A stretch of DNA of 64,000 nucleotides from Desulfofarcimen acetoxidans DSM 771 (lineage in GTDB: Bacteria > Bacillota > Desulfotomaculia > Desulfotomaculales > Desulfofarciminaceae): assembly GCF_000024205.1 (NCBI RefSeq), contig NC_013216.1, positions 4,154,001 through 4,218,000 on the forward strand, written 5' to 3'. Positions within the stretch are counted from its first letter, which is position 1, and each line of letters opens with the position of its first letter. The notes below the pieces were generated by a model. It was not told the origin of the DNA. It saw only the letters and a program-made list of their open reading frames with translations, and did not search any database. The position numbers and the translations under genes are program-made. Shown in pieces: positions 21,219 through 63,156 of the stretch.

Positions 21219-21242
21219 ATCTTACCATTTATGGTATAGTCT

Positions 21243-21334
21243 TTTGCAACCAGGCTATCTTATCGCTTAATGCAACTTAGACCCTTGGCTTTGCGTCTCT
21301 GGCTTTCGCCAGATTTGCCCTCTAAGGCTATTTT
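21243..21334 (-). ncRNA. Cyclic di-GMP-I (GEMM-I) riboswitch aptamer
   Basis: The minus strand shows the GEMM-I hallmarks in order: AGGGCAAA, a stem TCTGGC-GAAA-GCCAGA with a GNRA tetraloop, GACGCAAAGCCAAGGGTCT, and the distal TAGCCTGGTTGCA. These match the conserved core that binds c-di-GMP. It lies directly upstream of the terminator/RBS hairpin of the gene at 20910. Whether c-di-GMP turns expression on or off cannot be read with certainty. Confidence 0.92.
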
Positions 21335-41438: not shown

Positions 41439-42437
41439 TCAATGCAACTCGTTTTTAATTTTCTGTACAATTTCTTTATCCAGTGCAGTTATTTTACATA
41501 TAACATCAACCGATATACCTTCTTTCAAGGCCGCCCTTGCTGTTTCCAAAGCCTTTTTCAACTCGCCTTCTTTTATGCCTTCCTTAATCCCCTCTTTTAT
41601 ACCCTCTTTTTTCGCCTGCTGCTGCATCTCATCTAGTGTTACCTCGAGGTTCATAATCATAAATTCCACCTCCAACTGGTTGGCTTCCTCCATAATACGG
41701 TCAACTTCCTTATGCAAATGGACCGGCATTCTCGGCTTGATGACATTTTTGAGCCAAATCATAATTTGCCTGAATTCATCCTGAGTTAGTTTTCTCAATA
41801 CCATGATTAATTTCCTCAGGCGTCTAATTAATTCCTTATGGTTCATTGTCTGGTCCAGAACAAATACGCTGGCTATCAGGTTTGCCATTTCGTACAGTTC
41901 CTCATCTTTGTATCTGTTGACATCAAACAATATGTAACTAAAGTCCAATACCCGCCCACCGAATATTTGATAGTCAGACAGCATTTCCCTGAAATTCATC
42001 TTTGCCGTCCAGTTGTTCTTGCCATTGTACAATACCGCCGGTACTATAGCCGGCAGCCTAAAGTCTTTACGATCCCTTTCTTCTTTCTGTGTGTTATTGT
42101 ACGTTTCTCTCCATATCTGCACCATGTACTGTAGTAAACGAAAGGGCATCAGAAAATCTACAGTAGATTGTAACTCCAGCAGTACGTAGAATATGACATC
42201 CTTTTCCTTCGTCCGGAGCCGATACACCACATCTGCCTCTTTTTCACTGAAATCTTCCAGCACGAATGACTTATCAACCAGGAGCAACCCATCTTCTTCT
42301 ATTTCGTTCACCCAATCCTCTTGCACAAAGGTTTTGATTAATTCCAGAAATATCTTTTTATTGCTGAGAAGTTGCTTATAACCCTTGTCATGGGGATGGT
42401 GTGGATGTTTTAGGTTAGGTTGGCCACTTTCCGTCAT
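41439..42437 (-). CDS. Rpn/YhgA-type recombination-promoting nuclease, copy A
   Basis: This 332-residue PD-(D/E)XK nuclease belongs to the Rpn (transposase_31) family, which cuts DNA and promotes RecA-independent recombination in E. coli relatives. The N-terminal part shows HDKGYKQLLSNKKIFLELI, then EADVVYR and YVLLELQS as the likely D...E-x-Q active site. A run of GIKE repeats follows at about 280-295 (three units). It is nearly identical to copy B at 51187, which has two more units. The duplicated block extends beyond the gene on both sides. Confidence 0.88.
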   Translation of the reverse strand: MTESGQPNLKHPHHPHDKGYKQLLSNKKIFLELIKTFVQEDWVNEIEEDGLLLVDKSFVLEDFSEKEADVVYRLRTKEKDVIFYVLLELQSTVDFLMPFRLLQYMVQIWRETYNNTQKEERDRKDFRLPAIVPAVLYNGKNNWTAKMNFREMLSDYQIFGGRVLDFSYILFDVNRYKDEELYEMANLIASVFVLDQTMNHKELIRRLRKLIMVLRKLTQDEFRQIMIWLKNVIKPRMPVHLHKEVDRIMEEANQLEVEFMIMNLEVTLDEMQQQAKKEGIKEGIKEGIKEGELKKALETARAALKEGISVDVICKITALDKEIVQKIKNELH

Positions 42438-42914: not shown

Positions 42915-42974
42915 AACAAGGCCGCCATTCATCCCACCACCTTAGAGGTGGGATGAATGGCGGCCTTGTTTTAG
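42915..42974. repeat. 26-bp perfect inverted repeat (60-nt hairpin)
   Basis: The arms begin AAAACAAGGCCGCCATTC and are perfect over 26 bp around an 8-nt loop (ACCTTAGA). The stem ends in AAAA/TTTT, so it can terminate transcription in both directions. It stands between H elements 4 and 5, downstream of the YgiT/DUF4258 pair. Confidence 0.85.
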
Positions 42975-43842: not shown

Positions 43843-43989
43843 CATGTCTTGACAGTTTTTTACTGGGTCGAGTAGAAGTGAGCCTCTCAAACTTTAGGAG
43901 ACGCTTTGTGTTCCCTGTTTCTCCCCGTTTCCTCTGGGAGTGTCACAATATATGCTCCATGACCTGATTGGACTCAAACAACGATAGGT

Positions 43990-45105
43990 AAGGGTCTTCC
44001 TCGCACATTACCGGAAATGGTTATGCCGTTCGGAAGCCCTTTTCCCCCGTTTCGCACCGGACTTGACACTTTCGCGTCATCCGGCGCTCCATCAACCTTA
44101 CTTGCTAACTTTGTTCAACTTTTCTCTCATCCTGTTTAGTTTACGTAATATAGGCTTAGATAGATTTAGCTTAATTTCATTGCTATGAACTAATTCGTGA
44201 CATGTTTTGCAGACACTGGCTAGATTAGGTACACGATTTATAAGTTTCAAAGGTAAGCGTTCATTAATATGATGGAATTCGATGGTGATTCCATTAAGTT
44301 TTACACCACATATTTTGCAATTACCTCTGTCCCGATTTAATACGTATCCCCGGTTGAGAAAGTACTCAAAATTATACTTTGGGTGGATGCTCGAACTGTG
44401 TGTAATTTTATTGATGAAATGACTGCTGAGCAATTCGTCATCTCTTGGCAGCCTTCGGAATTTATCGGTACGTTTCCGGTATAATTCCCTTCCGACTGGG
44501 GTATATGGAGTTTCATCCTGGTTCTTTTGTTTGGTTTTTCTCCATTTACAATATTACAATGAGGTAACTCCAATGATCTGATTACCATATTTGACAGCAG
44601 GGATCATAGATGCATACATGTTGTGAACTGTTGTCAGGTTGTTTACCTCATTTGCCAGGACAAGCCTTCCCCCATATTTCTTGATTTCCCGAAAGGCCAA
44701 GCGTTTTATTACCCAGGAGTATTTACTAAGATCCGAGCAGAGCTGCGTTGCAGGTTGATAGTAATTAATAAGTCCACGAATTATGCTATTGACTTTATAG
44801 ATCTGACAGATTGCCAGATCTATGTTTACACATCTTCCAATCCGTTTTATCTGTTTTCGGATTTCGAATACTTTTTGCTTCAGCCGGTTAGGGTTGGGTC
44901 GGGTCTTTGATACGTGTCCCTTTCTGGCTTTTCCTGATGGAATAACTTTGTAAGTAAATCCGAGAAACTCAATGGGCTTCTTTTTAATATTGGTGATTTG
45001 CGTTTTATCTTCAGACAGTGTAAGCTTAAGTTGATCCTGTAGATACTGTTACAGTTGTTTCTTCCATTTTTCTGCATTTAGTTTTGTATCGGTTATCAGA
45101 ACCCG
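43990..45105 (-). pseudogene. Group II intron 0 remnant: RT-maturase C-terminus with HNH domain
   Basis: Reading from 45105 the frame gives RVLITDTKLNAEKW, a stop, then KTQITNIKKKPIEFLGFTYK and the maturase part (SIIRGLINYYQPATQ). It ends at a stop near 44570 and resumes in another frame as an HNH endonuclease (44433-44098: CKICGVKLNG...HHINERLPLK...CKTCHELVH). A domain V-like hairpin lies at 44054-44087 and the 3' end near 43990. The N-terminal half, up to the YADD motif, is missing. 43843-43989 holds the 3' exon flank and nothing else recognised. Confidence 0.8.
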
Positions 45106-45332
45106 GTGAGTAGCCCCAGGGAATCTCACCCCGAGGCCCTCTCAGGTAGGGTCGAGGACAGGCGCGGTAGCAGTTCTAGACCTTGTGAGGCCAATCCGGT
45201 TCTCTCCTTTCGGGCGAGTGTCCCCCTCAAGCGGGTCATCTGCCCCGTTTCCAACCCCCGCCTCGTCAAACGCAGCGTGCAGATTTCCCGCACTGCGCTT
45301 TCCTGCTAACTTCACATCAAGGGTTATGTGAC

Positions 45333-45877
45333 CTATTGTGCTGGCAGCGCTTTCGGATTTTTGTAGTGCCGTATCTTATAATCCGAGTATAAACCTAAGT
45401 TCTGATACAGCCAATTCCTACTCCACCTGTCCCAGCCAAAGCCTTTGAGATTACGGGCTCGCATTAGATGTCGCCGTACTTTCTTCTCAATCCAGTCCTT
45501 TACATAGCCAAAGCAGCGACCGGAGTTCCCAACTCGATAGTAATTCACCCATCCACGTAGAACAGGGTTAATGAGTTCAATAACTCTGCTCACTGGTTGT
45601 GATTGAAAACGACGAAATGTTTCTTTTAGTTCGGTCAATATTTTGGTGCGTGCTTTCATTTTTGGTGTAAATAGTACTCCCCATTTACCTTTGCGAGTTC
45701 GGCTCCTTCGAAAGTCAAAGCCTAAGAAGCCAAAACTTTCTCCGTTGGCTAGGTTTACTATCCGGGTTTTCTCTTCATTAAGTTGCACGCCAAGTTTTGT
45801 TAACTCTTCAAGTAAGCGCTGATAGACAGCCTTTTCCAACCAATTCCATTTAGGGTAAGCATCAATTAGAATCACAA
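45333..45877 (-). pseudogene. Intron 2 RT-maturase, C-terminal part (split by intron 3)
   Basis: This is the second exon of the intron 2 protein: V-I-L-I-D-A-Y after the catalytic aspartates, thumb and maturase (GFLGFDFRRSRTRKG, GWVNYYRVGNSGRCFG). It joins 47740-48517 in frame if intron 3 is removed at 45878/47739, giving 440 codons and a stop (1323 nt). As it stands the protein cannot be made without splicing. Confidence 0.9.
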
Positions 45878-47739
45878 GGTGAGTAGCCCCAGGGAATCTC
45901 ACCACGAGGCCCTCTCAGAACCGGACTTGAACCTCTTAGCTCATCCGGCTCCCATTATCCAGCCGCAGGACAAATCCCCATTTGCCAATGTATGAACAGC
46001 TTCGGTTCACGCCTGGCAATCTTGCCGAGCCAATAAGTCGCCCGCCGTTTGTGAGTAGCGAATTTCTTAAACTTTCGTTGCACCCAGCGGACTAAGGCCC
46101 GGTCCATGTGCCTGAGTACAGAATACAGTTCCGACTTGTAAAAGCGCCCGTAATAGTTTACCCAGCCTCTGATTACCGGATTAAACATACGCGATAAGTC
46201 TTCAAGTGCCTTGTCCGGTTTCAGATGTACACGCCAATCATGAATGGTTTGACGCATAGCCTTTTTCGCTTTATTACTAGCTGCCGGGGTGAAGTTGACA
46301 AAGTGCTTTCCGTATTTGTTCTTAGACCTGCGCGGCCGGAAGGTGTAGCCCAGAAAGTCGAATTTGGTTTCTTGATGTTCACCTCGCCGATCGTCGTCTT
46401 TGCAATAGACAATGCGGGTCTTGTCCGGATGGAGTTCTAACTCACATTCCGCAAACCGCTCCTTTAAGCTGTCATGAAGTTTTTCCGCATCTTTCTTGCT
46501 GCGGCAGTGTGCTACACTATCATCGGCATAACGAGCGAATGGCTTGTCGGGATGATTCCGTGCCATCCATACATCATACGCATAGTGCAGGAACAAATTA
46601 GCTAGAACGGGACTAATGACGCCTCCCTGCGGAGTACCTTTTGTACGTTCCTTGAGCATGCCATCTGGCATTTGAAAAGGTGCTTTGAGCCATCTCTGAA
46701 TGTAGAGTATAACCCATGGGTTATCGGTATGTTTGCGGACAGCTTTCATCAATAAGTCATGGTTAATATTATCGAACAGACCTTTGATATCGAACTCCAG
46801 CACCCAGTCATACTTCCAGCATCGCTGCCGGGTAACAGCTAGCGCATCAACTGCTGATTTTCCTGGCCGATACCCATAAGAGTCCGGGTGGAAATGTGGC
46901 TCCACAAGCGGCTCAAAATATATTTTGGCCACCATCTGTGCTACCCGGTCTGCCACAGTGGGTACCCCGAGTATTCTCTTACCACCGGTTTTCTTGGGTA
47001 TTTCCACAGCTTTAACGGGCGGGGGAAAATAGCTACCAGAAGACATCCTGTTCCAAATCTTATATAGGTTGTTCTTCAAGTTTGCTTCAAATGCTTCCAG
47101 ACTTTCGTCGTCTATTCCGGCTGCCCCCTTATTTGCTTTCACTCGTTGAAATGCCTCCAGCACTACGTGCTTGGAGATTTCGTACGGCTTTGTTTTGTTC
47201 ATTGGCTCCTCCCTTATGGTTGACCTTTGTTCAAAACTGGATAACACAGCCCCTTCGTTCCACTCCCATTACGGAGCTTCATCACTACTACAGGCTGTTC
47301 CGCCCCTGCTCTCCGCATCGATACTTTCGTCCTTGCGGGTCTTCCACTTGGAGTTTTCTCTTAGCATCGGAGGGCAGGTTCCCACGTTCCTAACCAAAGC
47401 CTGTGCCACGTTCACGCCGCCTTCATGCCGGCCACCACCTGGACAGTAAACAGGTTTCCTCCAGATTTATCCCGGGTTAACGACTACCCTCCGGTTTTGA
47501 TGACATCCCTACGCTTTCGACACTTTATCAGCGGTTCACGGGTGTTCGTCTCCATTGGCACTTACCTGACAAAGTCATGCTTCGCCTTTTCCGTAACGCT
47601 CACCACCATGGCTTTTGACCACAGCAGCTTACGGTGGTTTGGAGCCTCTACCTGCATAGCGGCTCCGAGGGGCCTTCCCTCATCTTTGGTTAAGCATAGC
47701 TTACGGGCTTTTAGCTAGCCCTACGCCTTCGTGGCGCAC
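45878..47739 (-). mobile_element. Group II intron 3, inserted in the intron 2 RT gene
   Basis: The 5' end GTGCGCCACGAAGG is at 47739 and the 3' end GGCTACTCACC at 45878, the choice that restores the reading frame of the host RT (D-D-I-V). Domain V occupies 45918-45951 (34 nt, beginning GAGCCGGATGAGC). Domain VI is a short stem GGTGAG / CTCACC. It carries a full RT gene. Length is 1862 nt. Confidence 0.9.
45955..47202 (-). CDS. ltrA: Group II intron reverse transcriptase-maturase (intron 3)
   Basis: This intact 415-residue intron-encoded protein helps splicing and copies the intron into new sites by retrohoming. RT domain motifs: GGKRILGVPTVADRVAQ, YGYRPGKSAVDA, GTPQGGVISPVLANL and the catalytic FARYADD. 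The thumb/maturase part (FLGYTFRPRRSKNKYGKHF, NPVIRGWVNYYGRF) runs to the C-terminus. No HNH endonuclease is present, so it resembles group IIC/bacterial-class proteins that prime from the host strand. The start at 47202 has GGGAGGAG upstream; 47247 lacks this. Confidence 0.95.
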   Translation of the reverse strand: MNKTKPYEISKHVVLEAFQRVKANKGAAGIDDESLEAFEANLKNNLYKIWNRMSSGSYFPPPVKAVEIPKKTGGKRILGVPTVADRVAQMVAKIYFEPLVEPHFHPDSYGYRPGKSAVDALAVTRQRCWKYDWVLEFDIKGLFDNINHDLLMKAVRKHTDNPWVILYIQRWLKAPFQMPDGMLKERTKGTPQGGVISPVLANLFLHYAYDVWMARNHPDKPFARYADDSVAHCRSKKDAEKLHDSLKERFAECELELHPDKTRIVYCKDDDRRGEHQETKFDFLGYTFRPRRSKNKYGKHFVNFTPAASNKAKKAMRQTIHDWRVHLKPDKALEDLSRMFNPVIRGWVNYYGRFYKSELYSVLRHMDRALVRWVQRKFKKFATHKRRATYWLGKIARREPKLFIHWQMGICPAAG

Positions 47740-48517
47740 TATCATCGGCAAACCGAGCATATTCAATGTATGTGTATTGTTCATGCCGTGTTACTTCTTT
47801 TGCCTTTTCAAGCATTTTATCTACCTCATTGAGATATAAATTTGCTAAGAGCGGAGAAATAACACCCCCTTGAGGAACGCCCCGTTTGCCACTAGCTTTG
47901 AGTATAAGCTTCAGCAGCCGCATCACGTTTTCGTCGTTGACTCTTTTTGCTACCTTCTTGAGTAATAAGTCATGGCGAACTGTATCAAAATAAGACCTTA
48001 AATCAAGATCGATAACACGTGTTTTATTTTCCACAACTGCTTTTGCTACTCTGTCAATTGCTTGGTGGGGATTCCGCTTAGGTCGGTATCCATATGACCC
48101 TTCTTGGAAATCAGCCTCGAATATTGGCTCAAGTATAAGCTTGAGTGCTCCCTGAACTACCCGATCGCGAATTGTTGGTATACCCAATATCCTATATTTA
48201 CCATCATCCTTAGGAATTTCTTTTCTACGGTTCTGGGTCGGCCAATACGTACCAGAGATAAGTTCCTTTTGTATTTGTTGCAGAAATATTTCTATCCCGC
48301 TTGCCTCAATATTGTCAAAGGTTATACCATCAATTCCGGGTGCTCCATTTTTATTTTTGGCCATTTTGTAAGCTTCTTGGAGTGTTTCTATCTTACATAC
48401 GTGAACGTACAATCCCCAAAATCTCCAGGTTTTATCGGCCTTCGCCTTGATGTATATCTTCCTTCTCAGGTCCTGTATGTTTATGGACGCCTTTATCATC
48501 TCGTCCTTACCCCCCAT
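47740..48517 (-). pseudogene. Intron 2 RT-maturase, N-terminal part (split by intron 3)
   Basis: RT0 to the catalytic motif: AYKMAKNKNGAPGIDGITFD, GIPTIRDRVVQGALKLIL, YGYRPKRNPHQAID, GVPQGGVISPLLANLYLN and YIEYARFADD, where intron 3 begins. In the unspliced reading the frame adds SAPRRRRAS and stops. The start is ATG 48517 or 48499. Confidence 0.9.
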
Positions 48518-49149
48518 CTTGTTGGAAGAATTGCTAACAGTAGGGTTCCTTTGCTTCCCCGGTATTACCCAGGTTCATTGCTCCTACGAACCCATCCACC
48601 ACCCTCTTGCCTTCAATTCATTTCCCAGTGTTTCTGGTTATAGAATCTACCTTTTTCTAAAAATTTCTTTTTAGGGCAAGGAGGGCTTCTCCAGTTGCTC
48701 AGTGTATCCTTGTTACCATGCTGTCGCTACCACCCCGCCGAAGTGGAACAGTTGTATCAGTCAGTTTTCAACTGTCCATGCTGCTTTCACCCTACGGTTG
48801 CGGGCTCAGCCTTCGGGACTACGCACTTTCGAGGCCACCTATGCGTTCGCTTTCGCTACGGCCTGGCAACTCGCTATCATCCCTTGGATAATATTGTCGA
48901 TAGACTCCAGAATCTCAGTTTCCTTTAACCCTGCTATCCTAGCTACAAGGTTTCTGACTTTTACCTCGGCAGGTTTCTCCCCTGCTGAATACACCAGCCT
49001 TTGCTGGACATACAACCGGACATGCAGTTTTCCCGCATCCGGCTCTTCATACTACCATTTACATAATATAGCCTATATCCTTACTTAGTTCAAAGATGTT
49101 TCTAGTGGGATTCTCACCCACTTCATGATACGCCCTTTACTTGGCGCAC

Positions 49150-51186: not shown

Positions 51187-52209
51187 TTAATGCAACTCGT
51201 TTTTAATTTTCTGTACAATTTCTTTATCCAGTGCAGTTATTTTACATATAACATCAACCGATATACCTTCTTTCAAGGCCGCCCTTGCTGTTTCTAAAGC
51301 CTTTTTCAACTCGCCTTCTTTTATGCCTTCCTTAATACCCTCTTTTATGCCTTCCTTAATACCCTCTTTTATACCCTCTTTTTTCGCCTGCTGCTGCATC
51401 TCATCTAGTGTTACCTCGAGGTTCATAATCATAAATTCCACCTCCAACTGGTTGGCTTCCTCCATAATGCGGTCAACTTCCTTATGCAAATGGACCGGCA
51501 TTCTCGGCTTGATAACATTTTTGAGCCAAATCATAATTTGCCTGAATTCATCCTGAGTTAGTTTTCTCAATACCATGATTAATTTCCTCAGGCGTCTAAT
51601 TAACTCCTTATGGTTCATTGTCTGGTCCAGAACAAATACGCTGGCTATCAGGTTTGCCATTTCGTACAGTTGCTCATCTTTGTATCTGTTGACATCAAAC
51701 AGTATGTAATTAAAGTCCAGTACCCGCCCACCGAATATTTGATAGTCAGACAGCATTTCCCTGAAATTCATCTTTGCCATCCAGTTGTTCTTGCCATTGT
51801 ACAATACCGCCGGTACTATAGCCGGCAGCCTAAAGTCTTTACGATCCCTTTCTTCTTTCTGTGTGTTATTGTACGTTTCTCTCCATATCTGCACCATGTA
51901 CTGCAGTAAACGAAAGGGCATCAGAAAATCTACAGTAGATTGTAACTCCAGCAGTACGTAGAATATGACATCCTTTTCCTTCGTCCGGAGCCGATACACC
52001 ACATCTGCCTCTTTTTCACTGAAATCTTCCAGCACGAATGACTTATCAACCAGGAGCAACCCATCTTCTTCTATTTCGTTTACCCAATCCTCTTGCACAA
52101 AGGTTTTGATTAATTCCAGAAATATCTTTTTATTGCTGAGAAGCTGCTTATAACCCTTGTCATGGGGATGGTGTGGATGTTTTAGGTTAGGTTGGCCACT
52201 TTCCGTCAT
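51187..52209 (-). CDS. Rpn/YhgA-type recombination-promoting nuclease, copy B
   Basis: This 340-residue near-identical twin of 41439 has the same EADVVYR and LLELQS active-site candidates. It has five GIKEG units at about 280-303 instead of three, explaining the 8-residue difference. The 5' flank (52210-52350) and the dprA tail upstream also match copy A. Because this copy adjoins the full-length comM-dprA gene, it is the probable source copy. Confidence 0.88.
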   Translation of the reverse strand: MTESGQPNLKHPHHPHDKGYKQLLSNKKIFLELIKTFVQEDWVNEIEEDGLLLVDKSFVLEDFSEKEADVVYRLRTKEKDVIFYVLLELQSTVDFLMPFRLLQYMVQIWRETYNNTQKEERDRKDFRLPAIVPAVLYNGKNNWMAKMNFREMLSDYQIFGGRVLDFNYILFDVNRYKDEQLYEMANLIASVFVLDQTMNHKELIRRLRKLIMVLRKLTQDEFRQIMIWLKNVIKPRMPVHLHKEVDRIMEEANQLEVEFMIMNLEVTLDEMQQQAKKEGIKEGIKEGIKEGIKEGIKEGELKKALETARAALKEGISVDVICKITALDKEIVQKIKNELH

Positions 52210-61275: not shown

Positions 61276-63156
61276 AAAAGTGTATTACCCACCAAGTGCA
61301 TACTTCCCTATATCTAAAACCTCTAATAATCTCTTTTCTTCAGCAGATATTTTCGTTAATGAAAAACACTCCCTGTCCTTTTTTGAATTACCCTTCTTTG
61401 GATAAACGGTAATAACCTGTTTAATATCAGATAATCTTGACAGCATTTTGTTTATACTCATTTTAAGGCCATTTTCATGCAGAACGCGGTTTAACAAACA
61501 ACAAAGTCTTAAGGCCAGCACGCAATAGAAAGCATGAACTTTAATTTTTTGATCAGTCCAATGATGTATTGGACGAAAACCTAAAAATGTAGTGTCTTTC
61601 ATTTGCCTAAAATCGTCTTCTATATGATATTGTGATCTGTATGTGGAGATTATCTTATCATTTGGCCAATCATGATTATCCGTAAATAAGACTGTCTTGC
61701 CAAGAAAATGTTCTTTAACATAGTTAAATTGTTTGATATTAATAGAAAAATCAAGATGAGCAAGACCATCTTGTTCATATATCTGAACATCGAAAATATC
61801 ACTCATAAACTCGCCGTGAAGAATAGTGGCAACATTTTTTTGTACAGATGTAACCGTGGGCTTACGCCCTTTTGTAGTTACACCGGCAACACGATCAAGT
61901 AATGATTTCTGCAGTACTCGTAACTTAAGAGTACATTTTTCAATATTAATTGCAATGCTCTGCATCTGTCCGGCAAATAACTCAGGATTGCAAACCACTA
62001 AAACTGTCATTTCCCGGTTATAAACGGAAAGCGTAGTCCGGTATGCCTTAACATTTCTAAAATTATCACTGTTAACCGACTCGTATTCTTGAATTGGAAT
62101 ATCAAGCAAGGATTTATTTTGAGAAAGCCTAAGAGAACCTACAACATTAAAAGCAAATTCACCGCTCATAACAAGATCCATATTATTTAGAGAATTGTTT
62201 CCCTTATCAAAAACAAGGGTTGCATTTCCCGGTTTACCGCAAATATTAATATAGCGGTTCTTAAGTTTCTCAATAACTGCCTTAAACTCAACAGAGTCGT
62301 TGTCATTGCCCGGATAAACATCATAAAAAAGAGGGACATTGAAATCGGGAGTAACCATCATTGCTAAACCGACAATCTTCAAATCAGACCTCTTTTCCTT
62401 GCTGTGGCCCCGTTGTGGTAACTTATCGGCTGATAACGTATCAATATATGTAAAAAAGTTGGTTGCATCGTAAATAAGCAAATCGGTAGAAAGATTATAT
62501 TTATCAACGATAAGTTGCGTAAATTCATTTTCAAAACTCTCAATAGCTGAGTCAGATAATAAACTCATATTATCCCAGAATCTTTGACTTGTTAATGATT
62601 GTTTTGGAGCAGGCAGCATTCTATAAAGCATTGTTTTATCATACCATTCACCAATTTGGAACTTGCTAACAGGTTTAACGACCCTGTTTATAGCAGCCAG
62701 CAGCATATATTCTCCGACACTTAACCCTTGTTCGCGTTTGGGAGCATACTTATCAATTATTTCAATAACACCGAGCTGCTTGGCAATATCATACAAAGCA
62801 CACACGGTGCCAAACTCTAAAACAATACTGTACTTGGGATTTTCCAAATCAGATTTGCCTTCAACAGCCTTGGCAATATCCTCGGCACGTCCAAGATATT
62901 TTTGCCGGACAATTCTTGGCTTACCGTTAACTCGGGCAGACTCTACCAGATAGTAATAAAATTGATTTTTTTTCTTCTTTTTAATGATCGAAGCCATGGA
63001 AACCTCCCTTTATTATGGTAGGGTAATACATAACTTCGACACTTATGCATAAAATTCCTGCATACATCAATAAAGTCTTTGAAATTAAGCATTTCATAAC
63101 CAAAAAACATGTCTAAAATGTTAAATATGAGTTATGCGGTAGGGTAATACACTTTT
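61276..63156 (-). mobile_element. IS1634-type insertion sequence
   Basis: The 15-bp perfect terminal inverted repeats AAAAGTGTATTACCC are at 61276-61290 and 63142-63156, giving 1881 bp. A similar internal motif GGTAGGGTAATACA is at about 63016. The transposase stop codon lies inside the left repeat. No target duplication is evident next to the ends. Confidence 0.85.
61285..62997 (-). CDS. IS1634-type DDE transposase
   Basis: This 570-residue transposase (IS4 superfamily) begins MASIIKKKKKNQFYYYLVES. Features typical of the family: STDLLIYDATNFFTYID (first catalytic D), TLVFDKGNNSLNNMDLV (second D region) and IISTYRSQYHIEDDFRQMKD (Y-x-x-R-x-x-I-E). It looks full length and intact, so the element may be active. 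Confidence 0.92.
   Translation of the reverse strand: MASIIKKKKKNQFYYYLVESARVNGKPRIVRQKYLGRAEDIAKAVEGKSDLENPKYSIVLEFGTVCALYDIAKQLGVIEIIDKYAPKREQGLSVGEYMLLAAINRVVKPVSKFQIGEWYDKTMLYRMLPAPKQSLTSQRFWDNMSLLSDSAIESFENEFTQLIVDKYNLSTDLLIYDATNFFTYIDTLSADKLPQRGHSKEKRSDLKIVGLAMMVTPDFNVPLFYDVYPGNDNDSVEFKAVIEKLKNRYINICGKPGNATLVFDKGNNSLNNMDLVMSGEFAFNVVGSLRLSQNKSLLDIPIQEYESVNSDNFRNVKAYRTTLSVYNREMTVLVVCNPELFAGQMQSIAINIEKCTLKLRVLQKSLLDRVAGVTTKGRKPTVTSVQKNVATILHGEFMSDIFDVQIYEQDGLAHLDFSINIKQFNYVKEHFLGKTVLFTDNHDWPNDKIISTYRSQYHIEDDFRQMKDTTFLGFRPIHHWTDQKIKVHAFYCVLALRLCCLLNRVLHENGLKMSINKMLSRLSDIKQVITVYPKKGNSKKDRECFSLTKISAEEKRLLEVLDIGKYALGG

Follow-up and report, generated by a model that had tools for sequence, protein, structure and literature searches.

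A nested array of group II introns

The stretch analysed here (the window) comprises 64,000 nt of the Desulfofarcimen acetoxidans DSM 771 genome (NC_013216.1, 4,154,001-4,218,000) and carries, on its minus strand, an array of group II introns nested in one another; coordinates below are window positions. Read 5' to 3', the array consists of the remnant of a host intron, the domain V (DV) of this host, an inserted intron referred to as intron A, the J5/6 and domain VI (DVI) of the host and part of an outer intron D. The reverse transcriptase (RT) gene of intron A is in turn interrupted by an intact intron B. The exon-binding sites of intron A (EBS1 and EBS2) and their partners in the host DV, the intron-binding sites IBS1 and IBS2, are listed with all other components in Table 1. 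In a first-pass annotation, host, A and B had been numbered introns 1, 2 and 3, and intron 2 was proposed to sit exactly behind the DV of intron 1. Intron A does start at the first base after the host DV (49013 versus 49014), and the same placement recurs at 24 distinct sites. We estimate at roughly 90% the probability that intron A represents a mobile lineage within the group II introns, with the DV of other group II introns as its homing site, and the case for DV targeting, built on sequence comparison, is strong.

Table 1 Components of the nested intron array, in 5' to 3' order of the minus strand
Feature	Position	Strand	Remarks
Host intron 1, 5' remnant	49045..49149	-	GTGCGCC..; most of D1-DIV gone
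Host intron 1, DV (target hairpin)	49014..49044	-	ends ..TGTCCGGTT; weak RF00029 match, G000:C1:4203014-4203044
IBS2 in host DV	49026-49022	-	TGCAT
IBS1 in host DV	49020-49014	-	TCCGGTT
Intron A	45146..49013	-	3868 bp counting nested B; begins GTATGTCC, ends CGACCCTAC
Intron A, domains 1-4 (D1-D4)	48851..48987	-	RF02003, 107 bits
Intron A, EBS2	48822..48826	-	GTGCG; partner of IBS2 in host DV
Intron A, EBS1	48793..48799	-	AACCGTA; 6/7 pairs with IBS1 TCCGGTT of host DV
Intron A, RT, N-terminal part	47740..48517	-	through FADD
Intron B	45878..47739	-	intact; nested in the RT of A directly behind the FADD codons (GATGATA)
Intron B, RT	45955-47247	-	
Intron B, DV	45950-45919	-	
Intron A, RT, C-terminal part	45333..45877	-	with maturase domain
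Intron A, own DV	45269..45299	-	recoded: AGCGCAGTG...CGCTGCGTT replacing AGCCGxATG...CGTxCGGTT
Host intron 1, J5/6 + DVI	45105..45145	-	CTGAGAGGGCC...CTACTCACC; near-identical to 3' end of intron B
Outer intron D	43978..45104	-	RT C-terminal part after YADD, with what we take to be an HNH-like tail, and 3' end
Intron D, DV	43978-44089	-	RF00029, 51 bits

Downstream of intron A the host continues as had been expected from intact intron B, in which the corresponding string GTCCGGTTCTGAGAGGGCC is uninterrupted. Intron A thus has a host DV before it and a host DVI after it, the arrangement of a twintron. The first 51 nt of the host remnant match another truncated intron fragment (L004; L and G labels are our own) at 86%. 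RNA features of group II introns are present in intron A, namely D1-D4, DV, DVI and a pyrimidine-ended 3' end; its own DV and DVI score 35.7 bits, under the gathering score of 40 bits. No endonuclease domain was detected in RTs of the A lineage, and the nearest solved RTs in the PDB are those of group IIC introns, all distant matches.

A second, intact copy of intron A is located at 1927.1 kb of the same genome (4.55 Mb, one contig; L013:3134 onward) and encodes an uninterrupted RT of 440 aa (L013:3630-4952; RVT_1 1.5e-34, GIIM 4.8e-16). It also stands directly behind a DV, but this DV and the DVI following the intron differ from those of the window. A third case is found in the metagenome-assembled genome (MAG) Peptococcaceae BRH_c8a, with an RT 88% identical to that of A and a host encoding an intact 437-aa RT whose stop codon precedes the end of the host DV by 39 nt. 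Searching the D. acetoxidans genome with RF00029 returned 10 DV-like places: the two own DVs of A, the two occupied hosts and six others, where no A copy was found by RT search.

The borders of intron B are proven by the uninterrupted copy of A, which reads GATGATATTGTGATT (L013:4398) where B sits, the junction in the window being GATGATA followed by TTGTGATT. A TGTCATC stretch in B is complementary to GATGATA and the same GATGATA site is present in the RT of B itself, so that B, unlike A, could target itself. The 3' exon of the host remnant is likewise an RT, interrupted just behind YADD.

Insertion behind domain V and its guides

The RT searches took in 113 genomes from the order and 398 from the phylum, to which four further classes contributed 242, 340, 58 and 75 genomes. 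Also covered were genome contigs (12 loci), plasmids (106 and 26 records) and 18 genomes or records to which loci belong; 15 plasmid stretches were fetched. The flank was read at every site with an alignable intron 5' end, with equal or near-equal flanks counted as one site. Relatives truncated at the 5' end (e.g. L041, L063, L066, L022, L032, L103), L051 (5' end unaligned) and L019/L099 were unscorable and stand outside all counts.

Introns located exactly behind a DV could be identified in other genomes as well. They belong to an RT group whose members share a recoded own DV (described below), to which L039, L062 and L068 were assigned by RT, their own DV being unread. In this group, the 5' flank could be read at 28 distinct sites, and at 24 of them it is a DV ending exactly at -1 (window, L013, L018, L040, L039, L036, L046, L035, L047, L052, L048, L061, L062, L068, L034, L045, L037, G420, L105, L106, L109, L111, L112, L121). 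Outside it, none of the relatives stands behind a DV, including L042, L038, L043/L044, the G296 and G434 sites and L113-L118 as well as the E-types L029/L080, L020, L102, intron E of the window and L065. Named carriers include Desulforhopalus, Desulfofustis, Caballeronia, Cupriavidus, Paraburkholderia and Bradyrhizobium, together with a Scalindua MAG and an archaeal Candidatus Syntrophoarchaeum MAG, MAG contigs being possibly misbinned. Neither a protein scan nor a 20-base junction pattern gave matches in a viral collection.

That the upstream hairpin is a real DV, as supposed in the first-pass annotation, is borne out by covariation. In an alignment of 18 of the 24 target hairpins, 97.2% of the cells of the DV helix are paired, against 24-43% in slid controls, and two-sided changes are seen in 8 of the 12 pairs; none of 500 shuffles came as high. 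Judged by eye, the 3' flanks at 13 sites start with C or T followed by J5/6 and a DVI-like hairpin, and seven further sites show a J5/6 and DVI-like flank with varying clarity; at L048 a second intron fragment stands 3' of the intron in place of J5/6 and DVI. The intron 3' end was not found for L039, L040, L068 (Bjap3) and L122. Hosts carry D1-D4 of three Rfam types (RF01999 in L033, L035, L046 and L048; RF02005 in L049; RF02003 in L045), and at 8 of 14 checked sites a host RT frame that spans 340 aa or more and contains a Y/FADD motif is located just upstream of the DV.

Empty sites were sought by joining 150 nt upstream to 100 nt downstream of the intron at four sites (L052, L061, L046, L045), the joined DV-J5/6 sequence reading as an uninterrupted host. 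For three of the four, uninterrupted DV-DVI alleles identical over 250/250 nt exist on other plasmids. Eleven Bradyrhizobium plasmids carry the L052 host whole and at 100% identity, among them one (NZ_CP066353) that bears a filled copy too; the L061 host is whole in CP126023; and the L046 host is filled in Caballeronia SBC2 and whole in SBC1. Since these empty alleles are identical throughout, insertion of A-type introns is exact, with no bases lost or duplicated, and recent.

Two variable stretches of domain I are complementary to the 5' flank, EBS1 to positions -7..-1 and EBS2 to -13..-9. Over 25 distinct combinations, 165 of 175 EBS1/IBS1 positions pair (shuffled mean 106.6, maximum 137 in 20,000 shuffles) and 108 of 125 EBS2/IBS2 positions (shuffled mean 80.8, maximum 98); the shuffles leave out the E-types of the window and L029 and hold the EBS stretches fixed, so that they test the pairing of partners and not the choice of stretch. 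For the 16 combinations at DV sites only, EBS1 reaches 103/112 versus 95.8 shuffled (p 5e-5) and EBS2 73/80 versus 67.9 (p 0.013). Eight group members read later pair at 6-7/7 for EBS1 and 3-5/5 for EBS2. Changes of guide and target on both sides can be seen for EBS1 in P. phymatum (AACCGAG/TTCGGTT), L036 (ATCCGTA/TCCGGAT) and L045 (AACTGTA/AGCAGTT), and for EBS2 in L034 (ATTCG with CGAAC). Members at sites other than a DV have correspondingly altered guides (L096 AAAAATC/GATTTTT; L107 AGCATAG/CTATGTT).

A recoded own domain V and alternative explanations

Target DVs and those of relatives L042, L038, G296, G434, L113 and L115-L117 read AGCCGxATG...CGTxCGGTT, and the E-types have an ordinary DV variant ending AGTAGTT, AGCAGTT or AGCGGTT. 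The own DV of the recoded group instead reads AGCGYAGTG...CGCTGCGTT or near variants of it, both strands being altered together. For EBS1, a mean of 3.4/7 positions pair with the own DV (15 introns) versus 6.4/7 with host DVs (18 sites), and for EBS2 3.9/5 versus 4.5/5. The rewriting on both strands retains the helix while removing the EBS1 match, and the loss of this match most likely keeps A from invading itself or masking itself with its own guide. Self-avoidance is thus the likely reason for the recoding.

Several observations weigh against this interpretation and against DV targeting in general. Four of the 28 members of the recoded group (L096, L050, L107, L119) are located away from a DV. 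The DV at L112 has one mismatch and folds no better than shuffles, 6 of the 14 checked hosts lack a usefully long RT frame immediately upstream, and the joined L045 flank found no empty site in the collection searched. The EBS stretches were picked out visually in the first alignment (first 330 nt of the introns), and they fit poorly in E-types (4-5/7) and in the outer relatives L116 (3/7) and L117 (4/7). The host in the window carries a DV as annotated but is a remnant: only about 105 nt separate its 5' end from its DV, and for this reason it is unlikely to be functional. Lastly, in a careful IQ-TREE phylogeny, which leaves out L043, L051, L068, L062, L023, L030, L009 and L114, recoded-DV introns are not one clade, the canonical L038 and L042 being nested inside (AU test p 0.0415); the recoded state needs two changes and was hence gained twice or lost once, the order being left open by the tree. 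An earlier FastTree analysis had united all DV-inserted introns and two others in one clade (support 0.87), a grouping lost with more rows and IQ-TREE.

The odd own DV might alternatively reflect drift or adaptation to the RT, the EBS1 mismatch being a by-product. We consider this explanation possible but rather unlikely. Recoding is present also in the four members that no longer target a DV, which together with the open order of gain and loss would suit it; yet three of these four carry new guides and L119 occupies an ectopic site nearly matching its former guide, as later retargeting would predict. The alternative also accounts poorly for changes that are compensatory on both strands and fall within the IBS1-equivalent while EBS2 pairing with the own DV is largely kept, and L038 and L042, which have other targets, retain a canonical DV.

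Improbable, in our judgement, is a structure-guided insertion in which the DV would be recognised as a hairpin in single-stranded DNA, similar to group IIC introns, with EBS1 pairing secondary. The first-pass annotation had brought in this mode of targeting, which our analysis does not support. DV flanks do fold better than shuffles (median z score -2.78, n=25), the nearest solved RTs are of the IIC class, and G296-type relatives stand behind a short hairpin GACGTC..GACGTT (z -0.74 to -2.84 at four sites, a fifth copy being in tandem). The other flanks, however, have a median z of -0.05 (n=21) and still match their guides, so that what the sites share is complementarity and not a hairpin in itself. 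Pairing of EBS1 and EBS2 with the DV 3' strand covaries from site to site, and the sequence of one strand is enough to account for specificity. No EBS2/IBS2 interaction is known in group IIC introns, and EBS2 is in use in the A group, as the pairing counts given above indicate. No terminators or attC sites were seen by eye among the targets (24 DV sites and 4 others). Within guide-directed DV targeting, the DV hairpin could play a helper role.

It is hardly credible that DV and A form one composite element, with an extra upstream DV or as a circularly permuted intron: at each of the 24 sites the DV directly adjoins the 5' end of the intron and permuted group II introns occur in bacteria (PMC8637638), but A has a complete 3' end of its own including a DV, the flanking DVs, DVIs and upstream RTs vary from site to site, and identical hosts without A contradict such an element. 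Chance adjacency of A and a DV is ruled out by recurrence at 24 distinct sites and by the empty-site alleles.

Proposed route and relation to known systems

We hypothesize that excised A RNA together with its RT would recognise its target through two pairings, that of EBS1 (AACCGTA-like) with the final 7 nt of the DV 3' strand, and that of EBS2 (GTGAG/GTGCG-like) with nt -13 to -9. A would then reverse-splice precisely between DV and J5/6 and be copied into DNA. No part of a group II intron is more conserved than DV, so that one guide should suit introns of several classes. Splicing of A from the nested twintron would rejoin DV to DVI, so that the host intron should still be able to splice afterwards.

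Going further, we lean towards the view that the lineage, which is present in Bacillota, Desulfobacterota, Pseudomonadota, Planctomycetota and one archaeal MAG, exploits group II introns generally as a hyperparasite, with a core-complementary RNA guide, hosts of several classes and self-protection by compensatory rewriting of its own core. The guide may also bind host intron RNA or reverse-splice into it, thereby restraining competitors in trans. DV is the ribozyme core common to group II introns and, by descent, is mirrored in the spliceosome. A selfish RNA addressed to it would gain a harbour that can be spliced out and a host range across intron classes; the same address poses a problem of self and non-self, seemingly solved by rewriting the own core. 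Guide-directed hyperparasitism and self-immunity between ribozymes would thus become open to testing in this system.

The psbF twintron of Euglena has its inner intron in DV. Nested introns are already known, and the first-pass annotation regarded the DV of another intron as an unusual target; indeed, no DV-targeting lineage, and only twintrons at other sites, appeared in the accessible parts of the open-access literature searched (PMC2882425, PMC4424553, PMC8919778, PMC3552965, PMC3261151, PMC4028801, PMC12350094, PMC8914252, PMC8637638, PMC5572947, PMC3534033, PMC5894124, PMC4649490), where guide-directed DV targeting does not seem to be described. The closest parallel is TeI3 in TeI4 of Thermosynechococcus elongatus, which like A homes to a conserved site in another intron by EBS/IBS pairing; homing of introns into introns is named there as a route of proliferation. 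Unlike A, the T. elongatus inner introns are identical and lack open reading frames (ORFs), their target is not the catalytic core, and the available text describes no self-avoidance (PMC2882425). Site-specific homing into group II introns has also produced nested arrays (via PMC4424553 and PMC2882425), which B resembles with its position behind FADD; judging by title, their target is intron ORFs, not DV, and repeated insertion into related copies is the opposite of self-avoidance. A Trichodesmium twintron is likewise a bacterial intron within an intron, for which sequential splicing is reported, but it is a single case with the inner intron in domain I (PMC4649490). Euglenid chloroplast twintrons also consist of introns within introns, with ordered removal, yet they are degenerate and organellar, and the parts of PMC5572947 and PMC3534033 available describe no lineage with a DV-matched guide across classes. 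Group IIC introns resemble A in lacking an endonuclease domain and inserting just behind a hairpin, but target terminators and attC sites (PMC4424553, PMC8919778), whereas A uses EBS2 and sequence complementarity to define its site.

Tandem RT/ltrA annotations on plasmids (L046, L049, L052, L123, L125) correspond to the host and guest RT of one DV twintron, the nesting of which is invisible in public annotation of these loci. DV twintrons may account for tandem ltrA annotations. Published pipelines miss the outer introns of twintrons or set twintrons aside (PMC8919778, PMC4028801).

Among the relatives at other sites, G296 and G434 introns (L090, L091, L093) are located behind a short element that occurs repeatedly, GACGTCGCGAA(5-6 nt)GGGACGTT (GATGTC.. 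for G434), which matches their EBS1 AACGTCT. At L090 one G296 copy stands head-to-tail directly behind another. The window itself encodes a further relative of A, intron E (63757-58816, minus strand), which is of the D1D4-4 kind and sits in a transposase-like gene between codons WGI and E; L029, L020 and L102 occupy the same kind of site. Two features interrupt intron E, namely a transposase-like ORF (61285-62997) and, as judged by eye, a palindromic insert within its RT at around 59944-59623. Elsewhere in the window, a long inverted repeat, AACAAGGCCGCCATTCATCCCACC..GGTGGGATGAATGGCGGCCTTGTT, spans 42917-42973 near an ORF at 41439-42437 that is repeated at 51187-52209, and a cyclic di-GMP-I (c-di-GMP-I) riboswitch scoring 83 bits is located at 21242-21329 on the minus strand.

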